A DNA stretch of 37,603 nt from a virus. Of the stretch, positions 6,201 through 37,128 are shown piece by piece. Both the position numbers and the translations under genes were made by a program. Where the stretch lies: IMG/VR virus record IMGVR_UViG_3300044977_000091, positions 1-37,603 of that record, one strand, 5' to 3'. How positions within the stretch are numbered: the first letter of the stretch is position 1; every line of letters starts with the position of its first letter. The notes beneath the pieces are model-generated. The model ran no database searches, was not told the origin of the DNA, and was given only the letters and a program-made list of their open reading frames with translations.

Positions 6201-9200
6201 CAGGGCACGCCGATCGCCGGCAACGTCAGCCGCTATTTCTCCGAACACCCCGAGCAGGTCATCGGCCGCGAGACCTTCGCCGACACCCTGTATGGCCAAG
6301 AGGGCCGCTATGCCGTGCAGCCGATCGAAGGCCAGGCGTTGGCGCCAGCACTGGCCGAGGCCCTGGGGCGCTTGCCCCGGGATGTCATGGAGAAGCCGCT
6401 CACGGGCGAGGAGCGCGCGGTGCGCGACCTCGAGGCGCCGGAGCGTAAGGACGGCAGCTACTACCTCCGGAATGGCGATCTCTGGCAGTACCGCCAAGGC
6501 GCGGGCCAAGCCGTCGCCCGGCGCGGCTCCGGTGTCGCGGGTCTGACGGCCGCCGATCACGAGCGCATCAAACGCCTGATCCCGATCCGTGACGCGCTGC
6601 GGGACGTCTTCCGCGGTGACCTGACGGGCGACGTCGAGACCTCGGCCCGCGCGCGCGAGGCGCTCAATCAGCGCTACGACGCCTTCGTGCAGAAGCACGG
6701 GCCTTTGAACAAGGCCGAGTTCCGCCGGCAGCGCCCGAGCATCATCGCCCAGGAGAACGCGCGGCAGGAAGCCCGGGAGGAAGCCAGGGCCGCGGACCTG
6801 CCGTGGCGCGAGGGCGAGTTCAATTCCGACGCGCTCGAGCGCGGGGGTGCGAAGATCCAGGAGATCGCCCGCGCCCGCGCGGATCAGCGCCAGGATGCCG
6901 AGGCCAAGGGCCGCGAGTTCGACGAGGGCAGCTTCGAGCCCGACGAGATGCCCGATGTCGTGATCGAGAAGCGGCCGAACATCGACGCCTTCATGGACGA
7001 TCCCGAGTCCTACCGGCTGCGCGCGATCGAGCACTACGACGATGGCTCTGGCGAGAGCCGGAAGAAGCGCATCTTCTTCGAGAACATCATCTCGAAGGAG
7101 GAAGAGCCCCAGTTGGCCTCGGCCAACGACGGCGTGCTCTGGTCCTTGAACAAGCACGGGCGCCTCGACCTCGACGCCATCGCGGCCCAGATGGGCAAGA
7201 GCCGCGACGAAGTCGTCGAGGAGCTGGGCGACAAGGTGTTCCGCGTCCCGGGCACCGAGGACGCCTACCAGACCGCCGACGAGTATCTGTCGGGCGACGT
7301 CATGGACAAGCTCGCGGAGGCGAAGGCGATCGCGGGGGTTGACCCGACCTATCAGCGGAACGTCGACGCGCTGCAGCGGGCGCAGCCGAAGCCCTTGGCG
7401 CCGTCCGAGATCACCATGACGCTCGGGATGCCCTGGATCCCGCCCGACACCATCCGGGCCTTCGCGCGCGACCACGCGCGGATCGGCGATGTCGAGCCGA
7501 GCCACAACAAGATCATCGGCGGATGGGTCGCGGAGGGGAAGACGCAAGGCGCCGCCTTCAACCAGTGGGGCACGCCGGAGCTATCGGCCTTCGAGGTCCT
7601 GCGCGCGGCGCTGAACCGTGCGGCACCGCGCATCTACAAGGAGATCCGGACCCCGGAAGGCAAGGTACGGGAATTCGACCCCGTCGCGACCCAGGGGGCG
7701 CGGGACAAGATCGACCAGATGAAGCAGGCGTTCCGGGACTACGTCGAGCAGACGCCGGAACTCAAGGACCGCTTGGCCCAGATCTACAACGACAAGTTCA
7801 ACCGCACGGTCCTGCGGCCGTTCGACGGCTCCTATCTAACCACGCCGGGAGTTTCGTCCGAGTGGAAATGGCGACCGCACCAGCAGCGTGCGATTGCGCG
7901 TATAGTGCAAACTGGAAATACATACGTAGCACATGAAGTTGGTGCTGGTAAGACATCCGTATATATTGGCGCAGGAATGGAGATGCGAAGACTTGGCCTA
8001 ATAAAAAAGCCAGGCTTTATTGTGCCAAACCACATGCTCGCTCAGTTCGCCAAGGAATTCTACGAGCAGTATCCGCTGGCCAAGGTCATGGTCGCGGACG
8101 AGCGCGGGTTCCACACCTCGACGCGCAAGCAGTTCATGGCAAACGTGGCGCAGAACGACATCGATGGCGTAGTCATGACCCACAGCGCCTTCGGCATGAT
8201 CCCGATCAGTGACGAATTCCAGGAGCACCTGATCCGGGAGCAGCTTGAGCAGGTCGCGCAGGCCATGGGCGCGCTCAACGAGAAAGACGACCGCATCACG
8301 GTCAAGCGGCTGGAGAAGCAGAAGGAGAGGCTCGAACAGCGCCTGCAGGGCGCATTCAAGGGCAAGAAGGACCAGACCAACACCTTCGAGGAGATGGGTG
8401 TCGATCACCTGTTCATCGACGAAGCCCACATGATGCGAAAACTCGAATTCGCCACGCGGCAGAGCCGCCTCAAGGGCATCACGCCCGACGGTTCGAACAT
8501 GGCCTGGGATCTGTACTCGAAGATCCAATACTTGGAGAGCCGTCGTCCTGGGCGCTCCGCTGTGCTTGGATCCGGCACGCCAGTTACGAACACCATGGGT
8601 GAGCTCTATACGATCTCGCGCTATCTGCAGCGGCCGGAGTTGGAGCGGCGCGGCCTCGGGCACTTCGACAGCTGGGCGAACACCTTCGGCGACCTCAAGA
8701 CCGCGATGGAACAGACGGCCGAGGGCGCCTATCAGCACGTCACCCGGTTCGCGAAATTCGTCAACATCCCTGAGCTCTACAAGATGGTCGGGCAGATCAT
8801 GGACGTGGTCACGGGCCATGACCTCGATCAGTACGTGGTGCGGCCGCGGCTCAAGGGTGGCGAGCGCTCGTTCCACCTGGCGCCGAAGACGCCGGAGCTT
8901 GAGGCCTATCAGGGCGAACTCGCGTCCAGGGTAGCGGCCATCAAGGCCAGGAAGGGGCCGCCGCAGAAAGGCGACGACATCCTGCTTGCGGTGATCGGCG
9001 ACGGCCGCCATGCCGCGATCGACATGCGCTATGTCGATCCGCAGCTGCCGAGCAGTCCGGACTCGAAGCTCAACCAGATGATCGACAACGTGCACCGCAC
9101 ATGGGCCGAGACGCACGACGTCCAGTTCTACGATCCCGCGAGCAACTATCAGAAGCCGGCGTTCCGCGGGCCGGCGACCCAGATGGTGTTCATGAATTTC

Positions 9201-12200
9201 GGCACTGGCGACAGCGAGCGGCGCCTCTTCTCCGGCTACGACTGGGTAAAGCGCGAGCTCGTGCGCCGCGGCGTGCCGAAGGACCAGATCGCCTTCATCA
9301 AGGACTACAAGTCGCACGTCGCCAAGCAGAAGCTGTTCAACGACATGAACGAGGGCCGGGTCCGGATCCTGGTCGGCTCGGTGCAGAAGATGGGCACGGG
9401 CGTCAACGCCCAGCGGCGCCTCTACGCGATCCACAACGAGGATCCGCTCTGGTATCCGGCCGACGACACCCAGCGGAACGGTCGCGGCCTGCGGCAGGGC
9501 AATTTCAATCCCGAGATCGAGATCCACGACTACTCGACCAAGGGCACCTACGACTCGACGATGTGGCAGCTGATGGGGAACAAGGGCCGCTTCATCGAGC
9601 AGTTCTTCCGCGGCGACCCGAACCTGCGCGACATCGAGGACTTGGGCGAGGCCAGCCAGTATGAGCAGGCGTCGGCGATCTCGACCGCGGACGAGCGCAT
9701 CATCCACCTGACGGAGATGAAGCACCAGCTCGACCGCCTGGAGTTGCGGAAGCAAGGCCACGACCGCGAGCAGTATCAGGCGAAGCACGACCTCGAATAT
9801 GCGCGCCGGGAAGCGGTCGGATACGACCAGTTTGCCAAGGCGATCGAGGGCGACATTGCCAAGCGGCGGTCCACGGCCGGCGACGAGTTCACGATGCAGG
9901 TCGGCGACAGCACCTTTGACAAGCGGAAGGCCGCTGCGGCGGCGCTCGACGCCGAAGTCATGAGGGCGGCGTCCCGGCTCGAGGGCTATGGCGACACAAC
10001 GACGCTCGGCGCCCTCGGCGGCTTCCCGATCGTGCTGGAGAAGCGCGCGGGCTGGCGGCCGAACGAGAAGGTCATCTATTCTCTGAACCTGGAGCGCAGC
10101 GACGGCTCGTTGATGCCGATGGAAAGCGGCGGCGCCGGTGCCATGGGTGCGATCCAGTCGGGTGAATCGCGGCTGCGGAACCTCGAAGGTGCGCTCGCGA
10201 ACGCGCGGCGTCAGGGCGACGACTATCGCCGGCAGGCCAAGAGCCTCGAGGCCATGGTCGGCAAGAAGTTCGAGCACGGCGACGAGATCAAGGATCTTCG
10301 GCAGAAGGTCGACGACCTGGAGTTCGACATCAACCTGTCGACGAAGGCCAGGGAGATCGAAAGCGCGATTCCGAGCGATGTCCGCGCCGCCGGCAAGGCC
10401 AATGCCGAAGTACCCTTCGAGAAGGCGCTGGAGCACTATGTCGACGGCCTGGACACGAAGCTGATCCCAGGACTGCGCGATGCCAACACGCGGATCTTCG
10501 GTGCCCAGGCCAACACCCGCAGCCTCAACCATCTCTACGACATGGTCACGGGCCGCCGCAAAGCCCCAGAGGCGCCCACGGCGACCGAGGCCGCGCCTCC
10601 GCGTGTCAGCCTCGCGCAGCGCGGCTATGGCCTCGAGCCCTTGATCTCCAGCGCCGGCGTCGAGAAGGCGTCGCCCGAGGCATGGCGCGGCTTCATTCGC
10701 CAGAGCAAGGGCGTCTCGGCCGACGATGTCACGCGCTCGGGCGTCCACCAATGGCTCGACCGCCAGACGGGCCCCGTGACCAAGCAGGCGCTCCTGGATC
10801 ACATCCGCCAGGAGAACGTGGGCCGCCCCGTGACGGACCAGCAGCGCGATCAGGTGACGAAGGCGGTCAACGAAGTCCTGGACCGCATGGCGCCAGGCGC
10901 TAAGCGCATCCGCGAGCAGGGCTTGATCAGCGTCGACGGCCAGAAGGGCACGGCGCACTATCAGCGCGACGGCCTCGAGCACACGATCCGCTGGAGCCTC
11001 GCGAGCCCGGATGCCGTCGGGAGCGCGCGGCACGAGGCGATCCACTATCTGCGCCACTCCGGCCTGCTGACGGAGCCCGAGTGGGCGACGCTGGAGAAGG
11101 CGGCGGAGGACCAGGGCTGGATCGACCGGCATGGCGTCTCGAAGCAATACGGCGACGTGCCATATGAGACGCAACTCGAGGAAGCGGTCGCCAAGGAGTT
11201 CGCGAAGTGGCGCCGCGACCAGGGCCCGGAGCCGACGCGCATCCGGCAGGTCTTCGACAAGATCGGGCGGTTCCTGAACGCCGCCGGCGCGGCGGTGCGG
11301 CGCCTCCTGGGTCGGCAGGCGACGGCCGACGACATCTTCGGCTCGATCGAGCGCGGCGAGGTCGGGGCGCGGCCGCGGCAGGTCGAGCCCCAGGGTGCGC
11401 TGGCGCGGGATCAGCGAGAGATTCCCGGAACCGAGGCCGAGACGCCAGAGCAAGTCGCGGCACGACTCCGCCAGCGGCAGAAGGAGGAGGCTGAAGCTGC
11501 GATGCGCGGCCGGAAGGGGCCGAAGAAGCCGCAGGAGGACGTGGGCGAAACCCCGCTGTTCGGCGGACCGCGCCAGGGCGGACTGTTCGAGCTCGCGCCT
11601 GGCGACATGGAGCCGGCCGACCCGGAGGAGCCAGAGCCGACGACGATTGCCGGTCGGATCATGGCGAAGCTGCCGGGCCCGGTGCGGCTGGCCGAGGCCG
11701 CGAACTCGGCGCTGGACTATGCCCGCTCGCTGACGAAGGCATTCAGCCCCATGGCGATGCCGGCGGGCCGCTTCGAACCCACGGAGCGCGGCATCCACTA
11801 CGAGCAGTCGAAGTGGATCCAGGACGCGCGCGCGACGGCGTTCGACTTCGCCTCGAAGCAGCGCGCGAGCGCGCACGAGTGGGGCGCGATCGACCGGTGG
11901 ACGGAGCGGAATTTCAAGCCCCAGCAGCGCGAGCGCATGTACGACGCGCTCGACGAGATGAGCGTGGCGGCGCAGCAGGGCAAGCCCTTGGCCGGCATCG
12001 GTGTCGACCGCCTCACGCCGGAGGAGCGCGACGCCACGATGCGGCTCTACGAGAAGGTCAAGGCGCGGTTCGATCTCGCCCGCCAGGTCGGCGTCCACGA
12101 CATGGAGGGCCTGCCATGGTACGCGCCAAGGATGCTGGTCAACGTCGGAGAGCCTGACGCCAAGGTCGTGCGCGACATCCGGACACTGGCGCTCGCGGGA

Positions 12201-14330
12201 CAGAACCTCGACAAGGCCATCATCGGCAAGGTGCTGATCAAGCAGATCGAGAAGCTGGGTGACGCGGCCGGCGTCAAGACGGTGTCGTATGGCGCCGATG
12301 CCTGGGGTGGTGCCAGGGGGCCATCTGGGCTCGATAGGCTGGGCAGCAACATCACCACGACGTCGGCGCAGCTGCGCCATAGGAAGTATCTGACGCGAGA
12401 AGAGACCGAGGAAGCGGCCAGCCACGTCAAGGTATCGACGGAGCGCCGCGGCTTTACGATCCCAGGCCATCCGGCCTTCGAGCGTACGCGGCTGCGGTTC
12501 GAGACCTCGGAGGAGACCGGAAGCCAGAACAAGCCGGCGGTGATGCCCGTCCGTAGCGCCGAGACCGGGCAGATGCAGTTTCTGCGGGAGCCGATCTACG
12601 TCCACCCGGACTTCGAAGGTCCGTTGCGCGCGATCATGTCCAGCGAGACCAGCAAAGTCGTCCAGGGCCTGATGCGGTTCAAGGGCCGGACCATGACCGC
12701 GATCATGTGGTCGCCGATGACGCACAACATGGTGATAGCCGGCCGCGCGCTGCCGGCGGTCAACGGCAACCCGGTGGCGCTGATCGGCGACTATTCCCGC
12801 GGCGCCGCGATCACGGGGCGGCCGCTCTTCGGCGCCGAAACCGAGCCATCGCCGAAGATGCAGGAGATGATCCGAGACGGCGTCGACCCCATCGGACACC
12901 GGTACGAACTCCAGCAGGGAATCACGGGCATCGCCGAGGCGCCGACGATCGCGCCGGGCCGCTCGTTGACCGCAAAGGCCATCGGTCTCGTGCCCGGCCT
13001 CTTCGACCGCCGCGCCGGCGATGCCACCAAGCGCGCGATCGACGCCACCGGTGACCTGATGCACAACCGGCTGCTGTGGGATCGGGTCGGCGCGCTGCAG
13101 GCTGGCCTGTGGGATCGGCTCAAGGGCAATCTGATCCAGCGTGGGTTCGATCCCGATACCGCCGGGATCTACGCCGGGCACTTCGCCAACCGATACGCCG
13201 GCGCGATGCCGATGGAGTCGATGTCGCGCTTCGCCCGGGCGCTCTCGGGCCTGCTGCTGTTCTCAAGGTCGTATACCCTCGGCACCCTGGGGACGTTCAA
13301 GGATGCGCTGGTCGGGCTCCCGCTCGACCGCCAGGCCAAGATCATGCAGCTGGCGGGCTCCGACGAGCTCGCACGCGTCCAGGGCGTCGCCAGGCGTAAG
13401 GCGATGTCGATTATCGCCATCGATGCGGCGCTCTTCTACGCCGGCATCTCGGCGACCCAGAGCGCGCTCGCGGTCATGTCGGCGGCGCCGTCGTGGTCCG
13501 ATCTGCCGGACGAGATCGGCAAAGAGCTCCACGGGTACGCACGCAGGCTCGCGGCCGAGTACAGTTGGGTCAAGGACAACCCCGTGCGGGTGCTGGCGCT
13601 GCCCTTCCTGGTCAAGGACCTGACGGCACAATCGGAGAATGAGCCCGGCAAGGATGACCGCATCAAAGTCGGCGAGGTCGATCCCGAGCACGGCGACCAC
13701 ACGGCGATCTACATGCGCAATCCCGTCGGCAAGACCGGCGAGGAACTGGTGGGCTGGCTCACGAAGCCGTTGCAGATGATCCGCAACAAGCTTTCGCCCA
13801 TGGCGCGCCCGTTCTATGAGATGCTGTCGAACAATCAGGGCTTTGACCAAAAGCTCTACGACAGCCACGAGGGCGCGCTGAAGTCGATGGGACGAATCGG
13901 TTGGGAGATGGTGAAGGAGCAGGGTCCGGCCGATGCGGTCAAGGCCGCGTGGGACTATCTGCACGGGAACATGGATCCGCACTCGGCGAAGCTCCAACTG
14001 GCGGGCTCCGCGACCGGCTTCACGTTCTCGCACGGCTATCCCGGCGGCCCGGCCGAAGGCGTTGCCCATGCGGCGCTCGAGCGATACAAATTCATGCTCT
14101 CGAAGGAAGCGCCCGACATCCGCCGCATGATCAAGGCCGGGAACATGGACGCGGCTGACGCACAGATGCAGAAACTCGGGATCGCGGCCGAGGATCAGCG
14201 CTGGCTCAAGATGAGCACGCTTTACCCGAAGGCGATCTTGACCGGCCGGCAGGCGCGGCTCTTCGAGGAGATCGCGACGCCGGAGGAGAAGCAGGCCTAT
14301 GAGCGCGCGGTCGAGGGCTTGCACGAGTGA
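249..14330 (+). CDS. Giant polyvalent virion protein: transglycosylase, InPase-like, N6-methylase, SNF2 helicase, zincin
   Basis: The product is 4,693 residues; the ATG follows AAGGGG. Visible order: SLT-type lytic transglycosylase (about 20-125, candidate catalytic Glu37 in MVESGG, GPAQLLP motif); two SFDDLLG repeats (147, 163); Gly/Ala hydrophobic segments (about 330-480); InPase-like domain (about 570-740, DGDQVDAFFG with D647, D649, D652); a helical domain with YHIEAG (about 1025-1140); a short domain with RWSSPQKLWYAK (about 1350); an N6-adenine methylase (FEPGMGVGHF at 1796, NPPF at 1862-1865); an SNF2-like helicase (Walker A EVGAGKT around K2568, DEAH at 2724, SGTPVTN, QRNGRGLRQG); coiled coils (about 3140-3370); a zincin motif HEAIH at 3595-3599; and a C-terminal third with hydrophobic helices near 4330 and 4385-4415. 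Known polyvalent proteins of phages and conjugative elements are thought to enter the host with the DNA and counter restriction. That role is inferred here; the domains are seen. Confidence 0.93.
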   Translation: MAADGNAPDWRQLPVFDSAGEQYQIDPDLLRAHTMVESGGDPTAFNQETQAAGPAQLLPATAKRLGVKDPTDWNQAIPAMARTLRENYDQLGNPALASMAYFGSPDQDKWGPKTQGYLKKVSAAYGDFGDQNPFEYKPKKQQQPLSFDDLLGGGKAAQRQLSFDDLLGSPEESGATWAKGAKNMEQMLGISPKVDELLGLGGREAAQSAVSGTGSTAKGLAEMNKSREMLRPYWDLYQRFDQMSPEEQRKAEIQIDRDAMTKKIPEGIGIYLTAQLQEAKEGRKVATFDEFAGAPPSETGLYKAGEAASKFGQQQFPVTEQERKEHPIVSGIGQTVGGTIPAIAATAAGSLVGQPELGLAAGAGQMGAMMASEQAERARQQRPYGPLTPEEQAEAEKRETGAAQSGFVGGAAMGALPLGAILRPVERTAPGLMPWAAAKLQQAAQGGITFAGIGEAQTWLGEQIARQYGDDKAGYSFDLNRVVSGLIGGGLLAAAHPAGAPPEREAEAAPATAGAGETRQAPPPSPPQGGVPSLPAPRSAMPEARTVEDLVRDVQAPPPDAGTRAKPVKVETADDLGTAERHVDPQPTEAQIEAGNYQKGHVRFQGLDGTIESAAGDVRRGTGPDGKPWEVQMPVAYGYLKGTRGRDGDQVDAFFGNHPDAKTAFVVDQIKLPGGKFDEHKLLLGFPSEAAAVDAYQRSFSDGKGQDRIGAVTAMTPPELKDWLGKPGARMRPAGKIEPRVAPPPTDAASPQAVIRDIDAGHVTPNPDAIAARWGIEPIQAARLMHDVYQRPDSPIQPASAPSEDPATWTWRRVSDDRREARVRDVADYAHTEFGIGREQHPDDVAFIDATMAAQQQAIMQRLQPIKDRASKHGLTLTDDEASDVELAIEHGHDPDEAIHDAAERGGIRTEQDLAGEAQKGEGIPDEWKTPLEPVAELAPPTVDEPPRPRAAPAGPEPGAEERGVARGAEPTGGPQEARTQEVAHTGEQERRVAELEAERAAEARGEKVAGAPARSFEQIAKHPVGFDDLLPKTEEKPAGYGAGNKFFTQDAAAKARERLRAKMGRLSAGFDPEMMLDGLTLAGYHIEAGARKFSDYSKAMLGDLGESIKPYLKHLYQSVRGYPGFDAHGMDEDAAIDRHLNGEPQRTPRMLDDNGNPVFTKGERVVIPEGGGHLVGRHGEVTAAHAMTMAPMFGHGERQTSFHYEVKTDEGALSHSSKLEPETARPPRVVPDPMVDGVAVHPRDLESRIGYAVKDAKNLTERAGRARKGEMKQALMDGAANETRNAQKLRAVIENWRRQYPEESARLFPVAKSGATVAPEPPKPAPPEVPRPPQARAEVRQNAEKGGVEIKFSARPDEATIGRLKAAGFRWSSPQKLWYAKQTSDRLALANEFAGAEPVQRDLPKPAQASRPLAHLTDDELAEMARRHGVDVSGLPPSEATPAGAVPFRRKGTEDRVTEAMARTPTAHIEQQAAQQGGRAEIDHAEGQSAAAPVTTAASPFPDAVPEDQRWKPGDRVMLKYPSGLLGPARAREVVSVSPDGRQITLDGGLLEPHEGLERAPEGPKSEAETRDELHGNLPPGDAAAGTGDVQRAGARGQAGDVRAPEERRGTPAPERATGAGAEGRGRPAEGSAGTEARGREGDGRNAGLPGAGAGPASGAARRLAAAKVTGKNLSLAAGEVEEGRGPSQKAKDNVAAIELAKRILAEDRPATREEQTALAKYVGWGGLSGAFPDSNARFRPGLEEVGKRLKTLLTPQEYETARKSTQYAHYTSEPVIRAMWDAVRAMGFDGGNVFEPGMGVGHFIGMMPPDLALRTRYEGLELDHQTARLAKLIYPESGVRQADYTRTPMPENAFDLVIGNPPFSDAVVHADPKYTARNFMLHDYFFAKSLDSVRPGGLMAFITSAGTMNKIDPAARRYLSERADLVGGVRLPNNAFRQNAGTDVTTDILFFKKRPEPVSFEGPGAEKVPDWTETTPRSLPGRQGTPIAGNVSRYFSEHPEQVIGRETFADTLYGQEGRYAVQPIEGQALAPALAEALGRLPRDVMEKPLTGEERAVRDLEAPERKDGSYYLRNGDLWQYRQGAGQAVARRGSGVAGLTAADHERIKRLIPIRDALRDVFRGDLTGDVETSARAREALNQRYDAFVQKHGPLNKAEFRRQRPSIIAQENARQEAREEARAADLPWREGEFNSDALERGGAKIQEIARARADQRQDAEAKGREFDEGSFEPDEMPDVVIEKRPNIDAFMDDPESYRLRAIEHYDDGSGESRKKRIFFENIISKEEEPQLASANDGVLWSLNKHGRLDLDAIAAQMGKSRDEVVEELGDKVFRVPGTEDAYQTADEYLSGDVMDKLAEAKAIAGVDPTYQRNVDALQRAQPKPLAPSEITMTLGMPWIPPDTIRAFARDHARIGDVEPSHNKIIGGWVAEGKTQGAAFNQWGTPELSAFEVLRAALNRAAPRIYKEIRTPEGKVREFDPVATQGARDKIDQMKQAFRDYVEQTPELKDRLAQIYNDKFNRTVLRPFDGSYLTTPGVSSEWKWRPHQQRAIARIVQTGNTYVAHEVGAGKTSVYIGAGMEMRRLGLIKKPGFIVPNHMLAQFAKEFYEQYPLAKVMVADERGFHTSTRKQFMANVAQNDIDGVVMTHSAFGMIPISDEFQEHLIREQLEQVAQAMGALNEKDDRITVKRLEKQKERLEQRLQGAFKGKKDQTNTFEEMGVDHLFIDEAHMMRKLEFATRQSRLKGITPDGSNMAWDLYSKIQYLESRRPGRSAVLGSGTPVTNTMGELYTISRYLQRPELERRGLGHFDSWANTFGDLKTAMEQTAEGAYQHVTRFAKFVNIPELYKMVGQIMDVVTGHDLDQYVVRPRLKGGERSFHLAPKTPELEAYQGELASRVAAIKARKGPPQKGDDILLAVIGDGRHAAIDMRYVDPQLPSSPDSKLNQMIDNVHRTWAETHDVQFYDPASNYQKPAFRGPATQMVFMNFGTGDSERRLFSGYDWVKRELVRRGVPKDQIAFIKDYKSHVAKQKLFNDMNEGRVRILVGSVQKMGTGVNAQRRLYAIHNEDPLWYPADDTQRNGRGLRQGNFNPEIEIHDYSTKGTYDSTMWQLMGNKGRFIEQFFRGDPNLRDIEDLGEASQYEQASAISTADERIIHLTEMKHQLDRLELRKQGHDREQYQAKHDLEYARREAVGYDQFAKAIEGDIAKRRSTAGDEFTMQVGDSTFDKRKAAAAALDAEVMRAASRLEGYGDTTTLGALGGFPIVLEKRAGWRPNEKVIYSLNLERSDGSLMPMESGGAGAMGAIQSGESRLRNLEGALANARRQGDDYRRQAKSLEAMVGKKFEHGDEIKDLRQKVDDLEFDINLSTKAREIESAIPSDVRAAGKANAEVPFEKALEHYVDGLDTKLIPGLRDANTRIFGAQANTRSLNHLYDMVTGRRKAPEAPTATEAAPPRVSLAQRGYGLEPLISSAGVEKASPEAWRGFIRQSKGVSADDVTRSGVHQWLDRQTGPVTKQALLDHIRQENVGRPVTDQQRDQVTKAVNEVLDRMAPGAKRIREQGLISVDGQKGTAHYQRDGLEHTIRWSLASPDAVGSARHEAIHYLRHSGLLTEPEWATLEKAAEDQGWIDRHGVSKQYGDVPYETQLEEAVAKEFAKWRRDQGPEPTRIRQVFDKIGRFLNAAGAAVRRLLGRQATADDIFGSIERGEVGARPRQVEPQGALARDQREIPGTEAETPEQVAARLRQRQKEEAEAAMRGRKGPKKPQEDVGETPLFGGPRQGGLFELAPGDMEPADPEEPEPTTIAGRIMAKLPGPVRLAEAANSALDYARSLTKAFSPMAMPAGRFEPTERGIHYEQSKWIQDARATAFDFASKQRASAHEWGAIDRWTERNFKPQQRERMYDALDEMSVAAQQGKPLAGIGVDRLTPEERDATMRLYEKVKARFDLARQVGVHDMEGLPWYAPRMLVNVGEPDAKVVRDIRTLALAGQNLDKAIIGKVLIKQIEKLGDAAGVKTVSYGADAWGGARGPSGLDRLGSNITTTSAQLRHRKYLTREETEEAASHVKVSTERRGFTIPGHPAFERTRLRFETSEETGSQNKPAVMPVRSAETGQMQFLREPIYVHPDFEGPLRAIMSSETSKVVQGLMRFKGRTMTAIMWSPMTHNMVIAGRALPAVNGNPVALIGDYSRGAAITGRPLFGAETEPSPKMQEMIRDGVDPIGHRYELQQGITGIAEAPTIAPGRSLTAKAIGLVPGLFDRRAGDATKRAIDATGDLMHNRLLWDRVGALQAGLWDRLKGNLIQRGFDPDTAGIYAGHFANRYAGAMPMESMSRFARALSGLLLFSRSYTLGTLGTFKDALVGLPLDRQAKIMQLAGSDELARVQGVARRKAMSIIAIDAALFYAGISATQSALAVMSAAPSWSDLPDEIGKELHGYARRLAAEYSWVKDNPVRVLALPFLVKDLTAQSENEPGKDDRIKVGEVDPEHGDHTAIYMRNPVGKTGEELVGWLTKPLQMIRNKLSPMARPFYEMLSNNQGFDQKLYDSHEGALKSMGRIGWEMVKEQGPADAVKAAWDYLHGNMDPHSAKLQLAGSATGFTFSHGYPGGPAEGVAHAALERYKFMLSKEAPDIRRMIKAGNMDAADAQMQKLGIAAEDQRWLKMSTLYPKAILTGRQARLFEEIATPEEKQAYERAVEGLHE
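3025..3198 (+). CDS. Nested out-of-frame ORF 1 inside the giant gene (57 codons)
   Basis: This ORF lies in the +1 frame relative to the giant gene. Its ATG follows a strong Shine-Dalgarno-like run (GAGAGGGGA at 3010-3018, about 6 bases away) and it ends with TAG. The product is basic, and its second half reads like an ordinary helix (LSPEQRKEALRAAQNLRAV). The giant protein's own frame over the same bases (about residues 921-985) is low-complexity Pro/Ala/Glu/Arg sequence typical of a linker. It may be an overprinted gene, or the relic of a small gene swallowed when neighbouring genes fused. No family is recognised. Chance is possible, because GC-rich genes hold many long alternate frames. Confidence 0.33.
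   Translation: MSGKRRSSQSPNWRLQLSTSLQGRARHQPGLSPEQRKEALRAAQNLRAVHKRRAPKK
4966..5295 (+). CDS. Nested out-of-frame ORF 2 inside the giant gene (109 codons)
   Basis: This ORF is in the same +1 frame as nested ORF 1. The ATG follows GGAG at 4955-4958 and the ORF ends in TAG just before the methylase domain of the giant protein begins. The product has balanced, protein-like composition: MNFMGTYLQAMRQQAPGMFN, then LARAGKLETFAHQKS and an acidic Pro-rich tail. The pattern 'YL..MR...P.....L...GKL......' recalls TnpV-type small proteins of mobile elements, but this is only a resemblance. The giant frame here (about residues 1573-1682) is a Gly/Ala/Arg/Glu-rich disordered linker. This combination suggests that the +1 frame is, or was, the selected one. 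It may be an expressed overprinted gene or a fusion relic. Confidence 0.45.
   Translation: MNFMGTYLQAMRQQAPGMFNELARAGKLETFAHQKSVEAHRLLNELLAPEPKGVDGLPKDPQALRLAEERVMGEMLDFPVPERDQHPEPPDDLPQPKSQAKTSPLQLVR
7896..8036 (+). other. AT-rich, atypical-codon patch over the helicase Walker A motif
   Basis: Lines 7921-7980 and 7981-8040 count 28/60 and 27/60 G+C, against roughly two thirds in the rest of the gene. Codons that are rare elsewhere in the gene cluster here: ATA, GTA, CTA, ACA, AGA, GGA, AAA. The patch is in frame and encodes the most conserved helicase segment (VAHEVGAGKTSVYIGAGMEM and what follows). Possible causes are a recombined segment from an AT-richer relative, an assembly chimera at a conserved site, or selection on RNA or translation. 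Confidence 0.7.
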
Positions 14331-30162: not shown

Positions 30163-30238
30163 ACCGAAACTACGCTCTTACGCGCGCGCTACGCAAGGTC
30201 TAATATCGCGTTTTCCGACGCAACCAGGGGACCGGGTT
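30163..30238. promoter_or_regulatory. Divergent early control region
   Basis: Rightward: TTACGC (30178-30183), 17 bases, TAATAT (30201-30206), ahead of the gene at 30239. Leftward: TTGCGT (complement of 30191-30196), 16 bases, CGTAGT (complement of 30169-30174). ACGCAA occurs twice (30191-30196, 30218-30223) on either side of the rightward -10, so one regulator could control both directions. The region also has a run of alternating GC (CGCGCGCG). Confidence 0.5.
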
Positions 30239-30967
30239 ATGAGAGACGCGACTGAAACGAATGGCGTGAAACACGCTGACGTTCATCATCTGCTGGGGAG
30301 TCTCACGCGCGCCGACATCAAGAAAAACGCCATCCAGGCGGACATTCGCGCCATCTATGACCTGGGCGAGAGCAAGGGCATCCCGCGCAAGGCGCTGAAG
30401 CGTCTTTTCAACCGCGCAAAGGTCGACCCCACGGAGCGCGCGCAGCAGGATCTGTTCGACGCCGTTCTGGAGCGTGCCGCAGGCTTCGGCGACACCGCGC
30501 CGACCTACGACGAAGCCGCGGGCGCCTTCGCGATCCCGCACGGCATCGAGGACGAGGAGCGCGAGGACGGCCAGGAGGGCGACGACACCCCGAGCGCCGC
30601 GCCTGCGCCACCGCCACCAAAGCCTCCAAAGGCCGCGAAGCCAGCCAAGGCTGCGAAGACCACCAAGCCGAAGGCCGAGAAGCCCAAGGCGAACGGCAAG
30701 GCCGCGAACGGCCACGCCAACGGCCACGGCGTCGAGCAGCCGGCCACCATGACCGCGGCGACCCTGGACAAGATCCAGGACGAGGGCAAGCACGCCGGTG
30801 CCAAGGGTCTCCTGCGCGACAAGAACCCGTGGCCCGAGGGCGGCCAGGGTCACGCGCGCTGGGACGTCGGCTGGATCGAGGGCCGGGCCATCCATGACTT
30901 CGCACCCGCGCCCACGGCAAAGCCTCCGGTGCCCGCCGAAGACGGTCCGGCGCCGCAGTTCGAGTAA
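30239..30967 (+). CDS. Protein with GapR/DUF2312-like start and RMF-like end (242 aa)
   Basis: The ATG at 30239 has AGGGGA upstream. About residues 25-75 (KKNAIQADIRAIYDLGESKG, then KALKRLFNRAK) resemble the helical GapR/DUF2312 pattern of nucleoid-associated proteins in alphaproteobacteria. The middle is a Lys/Ala/Pro-rich disordered region (KPPKAAKPAKAAKTTKPKAE). The C-terminal part (DEGKHAGAKGLLRDKNPWPE, then WDVGWIEGRAI) matches the ribosome modulation factor pattern of phage and alphaproteobacterial proteins. RMF inactivates ribosomes; whether this short module does so is unknown. It is the first rightward early gene. Confidence 0.68.
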   Translation: MRDATETNGVKHADVHHLLGSLTRADIKKNAIQADIRAIYDLGESKGIPRKALKRLFNRAKVDPTERAQQDLFDAVLERAAGFGDTAPTYDEAAGAFAIPHGIEDEEREDGQEGDDTPSAAPAPPPPKPPKAAKPAKAAKTTKPKAEKPKANGKAANGHANGHGVEQPATMTAATLDKIQDEGKHAGAKGLLRDKNPWPEGGQGHARWDVGWIEGRAIHDFAPAPTAKPPVPAEDGPAPQFE

Positions 30968-30970
30968 CCG

Positions 30971-31465
30971 ATGGCCGGGCGGCGGTCCTGGTCCGGTGTC
31001 GCGACTCCGGTCCCGGTCGAGCGCCGCACCGACGCCAAGGGCCGGGTCTTCGACAGCCAGGGCGAGATGCTCTGGTATCTGGAGCTCGAGATCCTGCAGA
31101 GCGCCGGCGGGATCCGCAACCTCGCCCGCAAGGTGTGGTTCCCGCTCGTGCTCGATGACGGCCGCCCGCTCTTGATCAGGAGCCAAGGCTATCCGAACGG
31201 CCGAGTCGGCCGGTACACGCCCGATGCGGTCTTTGACCAGCCGGTCACGCCCGACCTCTGGGAGCGCGTCTACGCCGAATACAAGGGCTTCGATGAACCG
31301 AAAGCGCAGCTGCGGCGCGCGGTCTTCGAGCTCATCTACGGCGTCCGGGTGACGCTCTTCGGGCCAGCGGTCAAGGCGGCGAAGCGGAAGGCCAAGAAGC
31401 GCGAGGTGGCGCGCGCGGCGCGGAAGGTCCAGAAGCAAGCGGCGAAGCTGGCGGCGGCGGAATGA
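30971..31465 (+). CDS. DUF1064-type PD-(D/E)XK nuclease-like protein (164 aa)
   Basis: The pattern FDSQGEMLWYLELEILQSAG, then IRNLARKVWFPLVL and YTPDAVFDQ ... YAEYKGF matches DUF1064, a phage family with the restriction-endonuclease fold. Candidate active-site residues are D85, E103 and K105. A basic C-terminal tail (KAAKRKAKKREVARAARK) probably contacts DNA. Such proteins are thought to act as structure-specific nucleases in phage replication or recombination. It lies 3 bases after the RMF-like gene and could be the missing nuclease partner for the RecT-like protein. A hairpin terminator follows at 31562. Confidence 0.76.
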   Translation: MAGRRSWSGVATPVPVERRTDAKGRVFDSQGEMLWYLELEILQSAGGIRNLARKVWFPLVLDDGRPLLIRSQGYPNGRVGRYTPDAVFDQPVTPDLWERVYAEYKGFDEPKAQLRRAVFELIYGVRVTLFGPAVKAAKRKAKKREVARAARKVQKQAAKLAAAE

Positions 31466-31786: not shown

Positions 31787-31870
31787 ATGGCGTCAGACGC
31801 CCTCTATATACACATACCAGCAGGTTCCGTTCAAGCCCCGCGTGAGATTTTCTGCGGTGCTGGACGATGA
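31787..31870 (+). CDS. Possible leader peptide, coupled to the next gene (27 aa)
   Basis: The ATG has AAAGGAGAT about 6 bases upstream, one of the best ribosome-binding sites in the window. The peptide is MASDALYIHIPAGSVQAPRE and seven more residues. Its stop TGA overlaps the ATG of the next gene (ATGA at 31867-31870), which lacks a good site of its own, so this ORF probably delivers ribosomes to it. It follows a strong hairpin, an arrangement suited to attenuation. No family is recognised; it is too short for gene callers. Confidence 0.5.
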   Translation: MASDALYIHIPAGSVQAPREIFCGAGR

Positions 31871-32130
31871 ACAAAGACCACAAAGACCGTTTGGTCGACT
31901 GTCTGGTGTGCAACATCAGCGACACGGAAGCTACCTTGGACGGCATAAAAGTCCTTGGGGCAGTCATAACCTACCGTCTGTTCGGCCTTTCGACGCTGAC
32001 CGTTCGGCAGATCGCGGAGGTCGCCGATATCTCCGAGGCCCGTGTAGGAGAGGCTCTTGAAGGCTTAGCGCACGACGTTCCGGCAGTGGGCGCTGGCCAC
32101 TATTCGCTGGATTCGCGGTGGACGAAATGA
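31867..32130 (+). CDS. Small winged-helix DNA-binding protein (87 aa)
   Basis: The sequence has MNKDHKDRLVDCLVCNISDT and then a helix-turn-helix (LTVRQIAEVADISEARVGEA) with a wing-like end. It is the first gene of the replication operon; its start is inside the leader peptide's stop and its own stop overlaps the initiator gene's ATG (ATGA). This could be a regulator of replication, acting at the hairpin, promoter or iterons, or a partner of the initiator. No specific family is recognised. G+C is lower than in most of the window. Confidence 0.7.
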   Translation: MNKDHKDRLVDCLVCNISDTEATLDGIKVLGAVITYRLFGLSTLTVRQIAEVADISEARVGEALEGLAHDVPAVGAGHYSLDSRWTK

Positions 32131-33122
32131 TCACGACCGATGCTGGGCTCGCGATCATGCGGCGCGCCTTGGAAGATCGCGTCAGCTATTCCGCGCTACT
32201 TCTCCTAACCGTCTATTTCGATGTGGTCGACGACAGGGGCGAGACTGCGCTGTCGACTCGCATGCTCCACGAAGCCACGAAACTTTGCCGGCGGATCGTC
32301 ATCTCCGCCCGCGCCGAACTACTGAAACGCGGCTATCTAGCCGACACCAAACGCGACGACGCCGGCGTTCCTGTTCTAGTGGTAGTTGGTGCACCAAAAT
32401 GCACCCCCACCGGTGCACCAAAATGCACCCCTCCATCCTCGCCGCGGCAGCTCGGTGACGCTGCCGAATCCGTATCTGACGTAAAAACTGTAAAAAAACC
32501 ACGAACTGCCAAAGAGATAGCTGGTGAGGTGCATCCCGTTGCACCGGGTGCATCCCGTTGCACCGGGGGTCCAAAGGTATCTTTCTTAGAGAAAGAAGAA
32601 ACAAGTAAGAAAGATTCCCTTTTGACCCTGCCAGGAATGTCTGCTGGCGAAACGCCGAACGAACTGCCCAAGCTTCTGGACCCGCCAACCGCGACAGAGG
32701 TCGCCGCTCACGAGCGCTTCTGGAGGGAGTACCCTCGCCAGCGCGGTAAGGAGAATTCACTGCGCGCCTTCGTCTCGCGGCAACGGCGAAGGGGAGACGA
32801 GGCGGAGGCGATGATCCGTGGCGCGAAGCTGCACCGCGACGCATTCGAGCGCGAGTGCAAGCGTCTCCAGGTAACGCCGCACGAGCGCAACATCATCATT
32901 CGCGGCATGAAGTTCCCAGAAAACTACCTGAAGGAGGGCCTTTTCAAGGAAGACCCTGACATCGACATCAGCCGGGTGGTCGGCCAGCGCAAGGCCGACG
33001 AGATCAAGCGGGAACGCGCGAGCACTACCGCCAACGGTCGCTTGGTCGAGCGCAAGCCCAAGCCGATCGCTGTTGACACGCCCGAGTGGCACGAGCGGCA
33101 GCGCGCCATGGGGTTGGAATGA
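32127..33122 (+). CDS. Replication initiator/helicase loader-like protein carrying the origin (331 aa)
   Basis: ATG 32127 overlaps the previous stop (ATGA); GTG 32118 would add three residues. The N-terminal 90 residues look like a winged helix (VSYSALLLLTVYFDVVDDRG, then TRMLHEATKLCRRIVISARA), as in phage initiators. Residues about 90-190 are a variable linker in which the DNA carries four palindromic iterons (see 32388-32564). The C-terminal part (RFWREYPRQRGKENSLRAFV, later EAMIRGAKLHRDAF) follows the pattern of phage replisome-organiser and helicase-loader proteins. The next gene is a DnaB-like helicase, as in lambda-type O-P/DnaB arrangements. The family assignment is by pattern and context only. 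Confidence 0.74.
   Translation: MITTDAGLAIMRRALEDRVSYSALLLLTVYFDVVDDRGETALSTRMLHEATKLCRRIVISARAELLKRGYLADTKRDDAGVPVLVVVGAPKCTPTGAPKCTPPSSPRQLGDAAESVSDVKTVKKPRTAKEIAGEVHPVAPGASRCTGGPKVSFLEKEETSKKDSLLTLPGMSAGETPNELPKLLDPPTATEVAAHERFWREYPRQRGKENSLRAFVSRQRRRGDEAEAMIRGAKLHRDAFERECKRLQVTPHERNIIIRGMKFPENYLKEGLFKEDPDIDISRVVGQRKADEIKRERASTTANGRLVERKPKPIAVDTPEWHERQRAMGLE
32388..32429 (+). repeat. Iteron pair 1: two 18-bp palindromes
   Basis: GGTGCA-CCAAAA-TGCACC occurs at 32388-32405 and again at 32412-32429, start to start 24 bases. Each is a perfect 6-bp inverted repeat around a 6-base centre. The pair codes for a repeated GAPKCTP in the initiator. Compare pair 2. Confidence 0.85.
32528..32564 (+). 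repeat. Iteron pair 2: two 18-bp palindromes
   Basis: GGTGCA-TCCCGT-TGCACC occurs at 32528-32545 and 32547-32564, start to start 19 bases. The arms are identical to pair 1 but the centre differs. The 19-base step puts the two copies in different reading frames, so the conserved unit is DNA, not protein. Confidence 0.85.
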
Positions 33123-34441
33123 CCCGCCACGACCCCATTACGGCCTCGATCCGGCGCGAGGAGAGCGACGAGGCCTCGAAGGAGGCGGAGCAGCGGTTGA
33201 TTGCGGCGACGTTCACGGCGAACTCCCTGGCCGTGACGCTGGAGATCGACCCTGGCGAGATGGGCGACGAGAACTGCCGCATGCTCTGGACGACCGCGCG
33301 CGCGGTTGTCGGCAGGGGGGATTCGTTCACGCTCGGCCTGATCGCCAAGCAACACGAGACCTGGGGCAAGTACTGCCGAGCGTTGATCGCGGCCTTCGGC
33401 GGCGAGACTCGGGAATCGATCGGCGAGATCACGAGGACGATCAAGGACGCGGCCGCGCGCCGCCGGCTGCACGATCTCGCCATGGGGTTAGCGGAGCAAG
33501 CCCATGACGTCGCGACCACGCCAGAGGAGATGCTGGCGACCTTCATCCGGCAGGCATCGTCGATCGCCCGCCGCCCGACGGCCAAGACCAAGCGGCAGAT
33601 CGCGCTCGAGATTGTCGAGGACTTGGCGCGTGAGCCCGACTGCTACTCGACCGGCATGCCGATCCTGGACAGGGCTCTCGGCGGCGGCATCTACCCGGCG
33701 AAGATGATCGGTTTCGCAGCCCGCAAGAAAGTCGGCAAGACCGTGCTCCTGGGCACGATCAGCGACAACCTCAACCGCGCCGCAGTGAAGCACCTGTTCA
33801 TCTCGCACGAGATGGCGCCGAAGCAGATCGAGCAGCGCAACATGGCTCGCGCGGGGTGTTTCAACCCCATCCAGTTCCTGACCCGCCGCCACGCGTCGCT
33901 GCACGAGGTCGCGGCCAACTACGCGATCGAGACCCCGGACCACACCGTCTACGAGCACCGGCCTGGCGGGACGCTCGAGGACGACAAGCGCATGGTCTCG
34001 TCCGCCATCGTCAACCACGGGATCAAGGGCGTGATCATTGATTACTGGCAGCTGATCCGCGGCCGGCGCGGCCAAGACACTGAGGAGCAGCACCTTGGAC
34101 AGGTCGCCCAGCACCTCTACGACCTCTGCGTCGCCGAGGGCCTGTGGCTCTTGATCGCGGCGCAAATCAATCAGCAGGGCAACACCCGGGGCGGCGAAGG
34201 GCTCAAGCTCGCGTGCGACGCCTACTTCACGATCCACCGCGAGAAAGACCAGGACGCGGCTTGGCTCGAGATGGAGGAGTCTAGGTACGTGCCTTACACG
34301 AACGTCGGCTCTGACGAAAAGCCGGGCCTGATCTTCGTCAAGAACGGCCCGTATTTCGAGGACGCGATGACCGTCGCCGGCCCGGCGGAATTGACCGACG
34401 ATGGCCGTTGGACCCACCCGCAATATTCAGCGCTCAAGTAG
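33119..34441 (+). CDS. DnaB-like replicative helicase (440 aa)
   Basis: The start at ATG 33119 overlaps the initiator stop (ATGA). A short N-terminal domain (EAEQRLIAATF) is followed by a RecA-like core: Walker A AARKKVGKTVL (K207), then HLFISHEMAPKQIEQRNMAR as in DnaB motif H1a, Walker B GVIIDYWQLI, and LLIAAQINQQG. The Walker A is unusual, with Lys-Lys-Val replacing the common Arg-Pro-Ser-Met before GKT. The protein is a little shorter than DnaB. It should unwind DNA ahead of the phage replication fork after loading at the iteron origin by the upstream protein. Confidence 0.86.
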   Translation: MTRHDPITASIRREESDEASKEAEQRLIAATFTANSLAVTLEIDPGEMGDENCRMLWTTARAVVGRGDSFTLGLIAKQHETWGKYCRALIAAFGGETRESIGEITRTIKDAAARRRLHDLAMGLAEQAHDVATTPEEMLATFIRQASSIARRPTAKTKRQIALEIVEDLAREPDCYSTGMPILDRALGGGIYPAKMIGFAARKKVGKTVLLGTISDNLNRAAVKHLFISHEMAPKQIEQRNMARAGCFNPIQFLTRRHASLHEVAANYAIETPDHTVYEHRPGGTLEDDKRMVSSAIVNHGIKGVIIDYWQLIRGRRGQDTEEQHLGQVAQHLYDLCVAEGLWLLIAAQINQQGNTRGGEGLKLACDAYFTIHREKDQDAAWLEMEESRYVPYTNVGSDEKPGLIFVKNGPYFEDAMTVAGPAELTDDGRWTHPQYSALK

Positions 34442-35524: not shown

Positions 35525-35669
35525 CGTCGTGAGGGAATTCTGCGAAAACGAAAGCGGCCGCATCGCGCGGTTCGCGGCGAAGCACAAGGCCGACCCCCGC
35601 GCCCGCGAGCTGGTCGAGGTCGCGCGGCGGATCGGCGAGATGGCGAAGGCCGAGGCGCAGGCGGGATGA
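35517..35669 (+). CDS. Small helical protein (50 aa)
   Basis: It runs from ATG 35517, 8 bases inside the previous gene, to TGA 35667-35669, which overlaps the Dam start. The sequence starts MDDVVREFCENESGRIARFA and is helical throughout. Although short, its position between two coupled genes without any gap supports it. The family is not recognised. Confidence 0.55.
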   Translation: MDDVVREFCENESGRIARFAAKHKADPRARELVEVARRIGEMAKAEAQAG

Positions 35670-36538
35670 GCGCCATCGAGACAGCAGCGGCACGGCCAGC
35701 GCTCCGCTGGCACGGCGGAAAGTGGCGCCTCGCCCCTTGGGTGCTGGCCCACATGCCGGCGCATCGGATCTACGTGGAGCCGTTCGGCGGCGCGGCCTCG
35801 GTGCTGATCCGCAAGCCCAGGAGCTACGCCGAGATCTACAACGACCTGGATGGCGAGGTGGTGAACTTCTTCCGCGTGCTCCGCGATCCAGCCAGCGCTG
35901 CGAGGCTGATCGAGGTCCTGCGCCTCACGCCGTTTGCCCGAGAGGAGTTCTTTGACGCTTACGCGGAGACCGAGAACCCAGTGGAGCGCGCCCGCCGGCT
36001 AGCGGTCCGCTCGTACATGGGCTTTGGCAGCGATGCGCCAAACCGAGAGATTCGCACCGGATTTCGTGCCAATGCCAATCGGAACGGCACAACGCCGGCG
36101 CAGGATTGGATGAACTACCCGGACAAGGTCGTCGCCATCGTCGCCCGCATGGCCGGCGTGCAGATCGAGCAGCGGCCAGCGATGGATGTGTGTCGACAGC
36201 ACGATGGTCCGGAGACGCTCCACTACCTGGACCCCCCGTATCTGCCTGAGACCCGCTCGCAGAAGAGCAGGCGGTCCGGGCTCGGCTACCATGCCTACGC
36301 TCACGAGTTGACGGTCGAGCAGCACGCCGAGATCCTGGCCGAGATCCAGCACTTCAAGGGCATGGTGATGTTGAGCGGCTACCAGAGCCCACTCTACACC
36401 GCCGCGCTGCAGGCCTGGACCCGGTACGAGACGGAGCATATGGCCGACGGCGCGCGGCCCAGGCGCGAATGCCTGTGGCTCAACCAAGCCTGCGTCGACG
36501 CGCTCGGGCACGGCCCGCTCTTCGCGGTCGCGCCATGA
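35666..36538 (+). CDS. dam: DNA adenine methylase, Dam/D12 class (290 aa)
   Basis: The D12-class motifs are clear: LRWHGGKWRLAPWVL at the start (motif X), VEPFGGAASV (SAM-binding motif I), and YLDPPY (DPPY at 189-192, the catalytic motif). Dam enzymes transfer methyl from SAM to the N6 of adenine, often in GATC. The length is typical. It is a third methylase in the window, next to the methylase domain in the giant protein and the SAM enzyme at 26207. It overlaps both neighbours and probably protects phage DNA or times replication. The target sequence cannot be told from the protein alone. Confidence 0.9.
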   Translation: MSAIETAAARPALRWHGGKWRLAPWVLAHMPAHRIYVEPFGGAASVLIRKPRSYAEIYNDLDGEVVNFFRVLRDPASAARLIEVLRLTPFAREEFFDAYAETENPVERARRLAVRSYMGFGSDAPNREIRTGFRANANRNGTTPAQDWMNYPDKVVAIVARMAGVQIEQRPAMDVCRQHDGPETLHYLDPPYLPETRSQKSRRSGLGYHAYAHELTVEQHAEILAEIQHFKGMVMLSGYQSPLYTAALQAWTRYETEHMADGARPRRECLWLNQACVDALGHGPLFAVAP

Positions 36539-37128
36539 GCGCCCGCTCGCTCCGCAAGCCCCCGCCGTCGCCGCACGCGCGCTCCGGCGGCTGCCAGTGG
36601 TGCGGCGAGCCAGTGCGGCCCGGCCCCACCGGGCGCAAGCGCACGTGGCACCAGGGCCACGACGGCGAGCCCGAGTGTCTCCACGCCTACCGGCTGGCCA
36701 TGTGGGGCAGCTACCTGCGCGAGGTCATCGAGGCTCGGGACAAGGGCGTCTGCGCCCAATGCGGCTTCGACTGCATGGGACCGGCGAACTATCGGCCGCG
36801 CTCAGAGTACGGCATCGGCGGGGTCATCCTTGACCGCGACGGGACACGACGTTGGACCCCGATCAAATGGGTCCACGTCCGCGGCTTCATCTGCGATCAC
36901 GTCACGCCCCTGTGGACGGTTGACCGCACGCTTCCGTGGGAGCGGCTGATCTGGTTTTGGAGCGCCGCAAATGTCCAGACCCTGTGCCAGCTGTGCAGCG
37001 ACGCCAAGACCGCTCTCGAGGCGACGCAGCGCGCGAAAGAGCGTAGGGTCCACCGAAAAATGGGGCCAGGCCGCGCCAAGGCTGAACCGGAGCCGCTCCG
37101 CGGCACCGACGGACAACGATTGACCTAG
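36535..37128 (+). CDS. HNH endonuclease (197 aa)
   Basis: ATG 36535 overlaps the Dam stop. Three CxxC pairs are visible (GGCQWCGEP, CAQCGF, TLCQLCSDAK) together with the HNH core ICDHVTPLW and NVQTLCQLC. These bind zinc and form the beta-beta-alpha-metal nuclease fold. The protein is larger than a minimal HNH domain, with a basic N-terminus and a Lys/Arg-rich C-terminus for DNA contact. Phage HNH proteins can be homing nucleases or act in DNA packaging; no terminase gene is adjacent here, so which of these applies is open. Confidence 0.84.
   Translation: MSARSLRKPPPSPHARSGGCQWCGEPVRPGPTGRKRTWHQGHDGEPECLHAYRLAMWGSYLREVIEARDKGVCAQCGFDCMGPANYRPRSEYGIGGVILDRDGTRRWTPIKWVHVRGFICDHVTPLWTVDRTLPWERLIWFWSAANVQTLCQLCSDAKTALEATQRAKERRVHRKMGPGRAKAEPEPLRGTDGQRLT

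Follow-up and report, generated by a model that had tools for sequence, protein, structure and literature searches.

The stretch of DNA analysed here (the window) is a single IMG/VR virus record of 37,603 bp, IMGVR_UViG_3300044977_000091. It contains a predicted replication initiator gene, set between a small HTH-like ORF and a helicase gene and carrying palindromic repeats (iterons) within its coding sequence. The features of this locus, some of which have no strand assigned, are as follows.

31867-32130, + strand: small HTH-like ORF of 87 aa directly upstream of the initiator gene (ORF list, weak HTH matches only); its stop overlaps the initiator ATG (ATGA).
32127-33122, + strand: replication initiator gene, 331 aa, matching PHROG 270 'replication initiation protein' (7e-11, residues 14-327).
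32127-32390, + strand: predicted winged-helix (wHTH) DNA-binding domain, residues 1-88 (AlphaFold pLDDT about 80-96).
32388-32405, no strand: iteron 1, GGTGCA-CCAAAA-TGCACC (GGTGCACCAAAATGCACC), by sequence match.
32400-32675, + strand: initiator linker, residues 92-183, predicted disordered (pLDDT < 50 in nearly all of 92-183).
32412-32429, no strand: iteron 2, the same as iteron 1 (GGTGCACCAAAATGCACC), by sequence match.
32473-32522, no strand: AT-rich tract downstream of pair 1, 64% AT, second in AT content among the 50-bp stretches of the window (composition scan).
32528-32545, no strand: iteron 3, GGTGCA-TCCCGT-TGCACC (GGTGCATCCCGTTGCACC), in another reading frame, by sequence match.
32547-32564, no strand: iteron 4, the same as iteron 3 (GGTGCATCCCGTTGCACC), by sequence match.
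32574-32623, no strand: AT-rich tract downstream of pair 2, 70% AT, the most AT-rich 50 bp of the window and a candidate unwinding element (composition scan).
32579-32615, no strand: 10-bp inverted repeat, ATCTTTCTTA (32579-32588) and TAAGAAAGAT (32606-32615), with a 17-nt loop, within the AT-rich tract (sequence).
33119-34441, + strand: DnaB-family replicative helicase (PF03796 2.7e-13, PHROG 19 1.4e-31); its ATG overlaps the initiator stop (ATGA).

A first-pass annotation, made from the letters of the sequence, had proposed a lambda-like origin inside the initiator gene, followed by a gene for a DnaB-like helicase; the PF03796 match bears out the helicase. The initiator matches PHROG 270 in a six-frame search as well (2.9e-13), and has no Pfam match: PF04492 (Phage_rep_O) fails to match at E up to 1, with P22 gp18 as a matching control (6.9e-38), and neither PF13730 (HTH_36) nor the RepA_N domain is found. 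PF13730 matches seven of eight tested relatives (L021 falls just under the cut-off; L009 has no match). Like the HTH_36 initiators with TGCA dyads, the window initiator has GTGCA-N6-TGCAC dyads directly past the wHTH domain, together with a recognition-helix Arg. By profile, it belongs to PHROG 270; by dyad, position, and Arg, its predicted place is in the TGCA group. No close relative of the initiator was found by tblastn in INPHARED or by pattern search in IMG/VR, and none of the helicase in IMG/VR. Since the initiator has no close relative in the collections searched, the dyad conservation described below is conservation at the level of the class, not among near kin of this phage.

Elsewhere on the record, an ORF of 4,693 aa (249-14330) combines transglycosylase, pyrophosphatase-like, N6-methylase, and helicase (ResIII/DEAD) domains, and on these domains resembles polyvalent proteins that travel in the virion. 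An ORF with a borderline GapR-like DNA-binding domain (30188-30967; PF10073, 9.6e-5, just under the cut-off) lies two genes ahead of the replication cassette and is followed by a Holliday-junction resolvase-like ORF (30971-31465; PHROG 190). Downstream of the helicase are a D12-class adenine methyltransferase (35666-36538; PF02086 2.7e-19) and an HNH endonuclease-like ORF (36469-37128; PHROG 11604).

All four GGTGCA-N6-TGCACC copies reported by the first-pass annotation are exact, starting at 32388, 32412, 32528, and 32547. No fifth copy occurs across the whole window, even when two mismatches are allowed. From base composition, 0.004 exact copies would be expected per window. In 2502 synonymous shuffles of the initiator gene, in which protein and codon use are kept, exact copies average 0.08 and never exceed 2; when copies with up to two mismatches are counted, the shuffle mean is 1.78. 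Four exact iterons are thus far above chance. The two copies of pair 1 are identical across 18 bp, and pair 2 is an exact 19-bp tandem, so that local duplication within each pair is plausible. The copies had also been said to lie in different reading frames; this holds for copy 3 only, whereas the 24-bp step is a multiple of three and copies 1, 2, and 4 share a frame, coding GAPKCT, GAPKCT, and GASRCT. The broader claim, that the DNA rather than the protein is conserved, is made firmer by relatives: in L009 the copies occupy all three frames, and other initiator genes have iterons in two. An alternative reading of the sites as direct repeats (TGCAYC each 10 bp) was dropped: conservation of the outer GG/CC is 93% on either side, and the direct repeat does not hold through pair 2.

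Against an overall AT content of 34%, the window reaches its extremes beside the iterons. The DNA between the pairs, described earlier as AT-rich, is so in its second half only (32481-32527, 62% AT); 32430-32480, at 33% AT, is about the window mean. The description does fit the DNA right after pair 2 (32574-32623). The 7-bp inverted repeat noted there is present as well (32580-32586/32590-32596), its left arm contained in the longer 10-bp repeat. Neither a DnaA nor an IHF consensus was found near the iterons, and the suggested check of GC skew gave a shallow local dip near 32-32.5 kb, which is not diagnostic. Among 65 non-redundant TGCA initiators, AT content in the 160 bp past the last dyad exceeds that of segments drawn at random from the locus itself (KS p 4e-17), and the window is the extreme case for AT richness after the dyads.

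In many initiators the AT-rich DNA past the dyads also carries (T)GAACC repeats, 11-12 bp apart (for example L208, L211, L212, L214, and L227-L306). They occur in 25 of 66 non-redundant genes, compared with 12.2 expected, with 14 of 20 distances equal to 11 or 12. They accompany different iteron types, and there are none in the window. From their placement they are a candidate unwinding or strand-binding element.

In the AlphaFold model of the initiator, the recognition helix spans residues 55-68, with R56 near its start, and C-terminal helices follow the linker. Iterons 1-4 code residues 88-146. By this model the origin DNA (the greater part of the iterons, with the two AT tracts) is almost wholly within the predicted disordered linker, and because it is coded there it could tolerate sites without harm to the protein. 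A sequence search of the PDB found no match to the initiator. A fold search of the PDB returned generic wHTH domains, mostly of transcription regulators (CodY, MarR), none of them at E < 0.001; pSK41-type Rep is among these weak matches (E 0.03-0.08).

Does the arrangement recur? Two N6 dyads no more than 30 bp apart were sought in IMG/VR and GTDB, and found in 18 IMG/VR contigs and at 64 GTDB loci. Ten of the 18 viral contigs have the pair in a wHTH ORF directly past the domain, and four more have it within 58 bp of such an ORF; these counts are partly circular, in that the wHTH HMM was seeded with ten initiators, the window and nine N6 loci. The corresponding N5 search is free of this circularity, because no N5 locus was in the seed. 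At least 120 IMG/VR contigs carry paired N5 dyads. Of the 120 listed, 111 have the pair inside a wHTH ORF, with the dyads starting 2-60 residues past the domain in nearly all contigs listed. A control palindrome of the same form, likewise paired, was found in no IMG/VR contig. PHROG replication-initiation families independently match 12 of 20 motif-bearing ORFs.

The converse approach ignores the DNA. A scan with 13 wHTH domains as protein queries picked 80 loci, with 76 distinct initiator genes, and GTGCA-N5-TGCAC dyads are present in 73 of the 76. These genes have no dyads with spacing 2-4 or 6-9, and none of three control palindromes at spacing 5 or 6. The scan stays near its first sequence (68-100% identity), and 73 of 76 therefore measures conservation within one large subfamily. 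The first-pass annotation had raised the question of whether relatives might keep the initiator and lack the palindromes: near relatives in this subfamily keep the dyads, but some distant ones carry other repeats. Among more distant named phages fetched by protein similarity, TGCA dyads are present in Pseudomonas phi2, JBD68, vB_Pae_U2, ST64B, and a faecal phage; the initiator of Arthrobacter Kuleana has TGCA half-sites; and Aggregatibacter S1249, Klebsiella KpnBHU6, Stenotrophomonas BUCT708, Serratia BZS1, and Vibrio phages have other repeats in the same place. Among distant initiators, then, repeats that differ at one place indicate that the position is constant and the sequence can switch. 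In the literature searched (subscription journals lay outside the search), no description of a GGTGCA iteron in phage initiators was found.

The dyads also turn up in longer arrays and other settings. The longest N5 array seen has seven dyads in one initiator gene (L207:1578-1727), and L012 has eight N6 dyads in tandem. In Demequina gelatinilytica (L065:5185-5358), five N6 dyads lie inside an ORF that matches PHROG 3171 and 2447 and is not matched by the wHTH HMM, apparently the same dyad with a different N-terminal domain.

Of the 64 GTDB loci with an N6 pair, 60 lie outside wHTH initiators, and many are REP-like chromosomal repeats: intergenic gtag-GGTGCA-N6-TGCACC-ctac palindromes in head-to-head pairs, whose 18-bp core is identical to the phage iterons (L024-L087). 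Examples are L024:1257-1320, L025:1491-1802, L041:310-358, and L059:1136-1186, and the hosts include Sulfurovum, Phycisphaerae, Hyphomonadaceae, Aggregatibacter, Alysiella, and others. Because most GTDB pairs are of this kind, the 18-bp dyad is meaningful only in context and is not diagnostic alone.

What might read the half-site? All 69 non-redundant TGCA-type initiators have Arg at the residue aligned with R56, the sole invariant column near the recognition helix. It is replaced in seven of eleven rows scored as lacking the dyad. At least two of the eleven (L095, L129) are not initiators but second wHTH ORFs next to an initiator of TGCA type. The association of Arg with TGCA gives a Fisher p of 1e-7 with kinship ignored; by independent pairs, which are few, it is two for and none against. 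Arg at the equivalent position is also common in other winged helices. The alignments suggest an apparent link between the recognition-helix Arg and the iteron half-site. When 40 different N6 dyads and 224 different N5 dyads are compared, conservation of the outer G and C is about 90% and the centre is free, a pattern as for a predicted dimer site. In a tree of 80 wHTH domains, N6 spacing is scattered (11 spacing changes, compared with 13.0 for shuffled labels), and supported branches force at least two changes, which suggests that the half-site spacing changed more than once. The window initiator sits on an end branch of 3.25 in the wHTH tree, and its placement is unsure. Hybrid TGCAC/TTCAC dyads number 78 of 103 in the class with the helix change Gln to Met, compared with 70 of 177; that class is one clade.

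An origin embedded in the initiator gene is a layout already known from phages lambda and P22. In lambda, O dimers bind the iterons, and two iterons plus the AT-rich region are enough for unwinding (PMC7466680). Lambda ori lies in gene O and, like the window, places four dyad iterons, each about 18 bp long, and an AT-rich tract midway along the initiator gene; lambda O is a wHTH-type protein that binds as a dimer (PMC7466680), and the window initiator is also predicted to be wHTH. However, the window initiator lacks a Phage_rep_O match, its iteron sequence differs, its iterons form two pairs with an AT tract after each, and the next gene encodes a helicase and not a P-type loader. P22 gene 18/gene 12 and phage L 18/12 resemble the window in gene order, with an internal origin in the initiator gene and then a DnaB-type helicase (NC_002371 annotation; PMC8022706). 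They differ in that P22 gp18 is a Phage_rep_O protein (6.9e-38) with ATCGGTAAAA-type repeats, and the repeats of phage L are TGTCCAACGGA (PMC8022706). Each of the three phages, lambda, P22, and L, carries a different iteron inside its own initiator gene (PMC8022706). The earlier label of a lambda-like origin is thus best supported in function and layout (iterons and AT-rich DNA mid-gene, helicase next, recurrent dyad), whereas the initiator is outside the lambda O Pfam family and the gene order is that of P22 18-12.

Closer in the core dyad are the HTH_36/PHROG 270-391-1032-345 initiators (Pseudomonas phages JBD68 and vB_Pae_U2; IMG/VR L147 and L131), in which it follows the wHTH domain with AT-rich DNA behind. 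Annotated only as replication or hypothetical proteins, these mostly have N5 dyads (17 bp), in contrast to N6 (18 bp) in the window, and their full sequences cannot be aligned to the window linker or C-terminus. A plasmid parallel is pSK41 Rep (RepA_N, staphylococcal plasmids), likewise built from a wHTH N-terminal domain, a central linker that codes the origin (four Rep boxes), and a C-terminal recruitment domain (PMC5703833). Its ori-coded linker can be deleted if the origin is supplied elsewhere, and pPR9 Rep has a phage-like HTH of PF13730 (PMC5703833). These Rep proteins differ from the window initiator in belonging to plasmids and to the RepA_N family, unmatched in the window, in their boxes, and in recruiting DnaG. 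In the PLE satellites of Vibrio cholerae, the DNA-binding domain of RepA_N and the iterons covary as a module (PMC8263062), although the origin there is intergenic, the family is again RepA_N, and the iterons are about 30 bp.

These observations suggest that the iterons and AT tracts are very probably the replication origin of this phage, inside its own initiator gene. That reading draws on the repeats, which are more numerous than expected by chance, on the AT tracts, on the protein families and predicted fold, and on how the dyad recurs at the same position in many distant initiators. Its best form is a predicted lambda/P22-style origin served by an HTH_36/PHROG 270-like initiator, not by lambda O, and with the rarer N6 spacing. 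In the mechanism that we propose, a wHTH-domain dimer would bind each 18-bp dyad, placing one recognition helix at each GGTGCA half-site. By analogy with lambda, wrapping or bending of the region by four bound dimers might open the AT-rich DNA next to it, with 32574-32623 the likeliest stretch. The C-terminal domain would then recruit the DnaB-type helicase encoded by the next gene.

The dyads could instead be operators, through which either the wHTH protein or the small HTH-like product encoded upstream regulates its own operon while replication starts elsewhere. They do lie within the operon, and a predicted wHTH of dimer type whose fold matches are mostly CodY- and MarR-like regulators would suit that role. 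Yet they are 260-440 bp into a coding region, not at a promoter; the protein encoded there scores as an initiator of replication; and many initiators have dyads at this position, followed by AT-rich DNA. Autoregulation would, moreover, be compatible with origin function, and operators in place of an origin seem improbable. A partition (parS-like), packaging, or transcription-attenuation site would act through hairpins, and each dyad could form a short one; pair 1 as ssDNA folds better than shuffles (z -2.6), but pair 2 as separate hairpins does not (z -1.2). The host gene is mostly an initiator, and spacing fixed at 5 or 6 across the class is expected for a dimer site, making a hairpin function decidedly improbable.

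It would be harder still to credit a repeat kept for the sake of the protein, with the DNA repeat as by-product. Three of the four copies do code GA(P/S)(K/R)CT in one frame, but copy 3 is out of frame, the frames vary in L009 and other genes, the linker is predicted to be disordered, and shuffles encoding the same protein give 0.08 copies. Equally hard to credit are selfish palindromes of REP/BIME or other type that entered the gene by chance. The 18-bp core is indeed shared with the intergenic pairs of several bacterial genomes; the window copies, however, lack the gtag...ctac ends and have no further copy in the window, and phage copies are concentrated at one place in wHTH initiators, outside which the REP-like repeats lie.

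Beyond the predicted origin itself, a broader proposal is offered tentatively, with chances a little short of even. One origin-recognition code, in which GGTGCA half-sites are read by an invariant recognition-helix Arg, may be common to wHTH initiators of actinobacterial, proteobacterial, and other phages. The 5- or 6-bp spacing would have switched more than once, and in some relatives half-site and helix would have changed together. In this scheme the window would be a distant N6 member with two iteron-plus-AT modules.

For most environmental phages the origin has yet to be mapped. If a dyad can mark it by sequence alone in this large class of initiators, annotated as hypothetical, origins could be predicted in thousands of genomes of phages and prophages. 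Moreover, the apparent link between Arg and half-site, along with the change from 5 to 6 bp in spacing, would make the long-standing question of how origin specificity changes in phages addressable by binding experiments on small wHTH domains.
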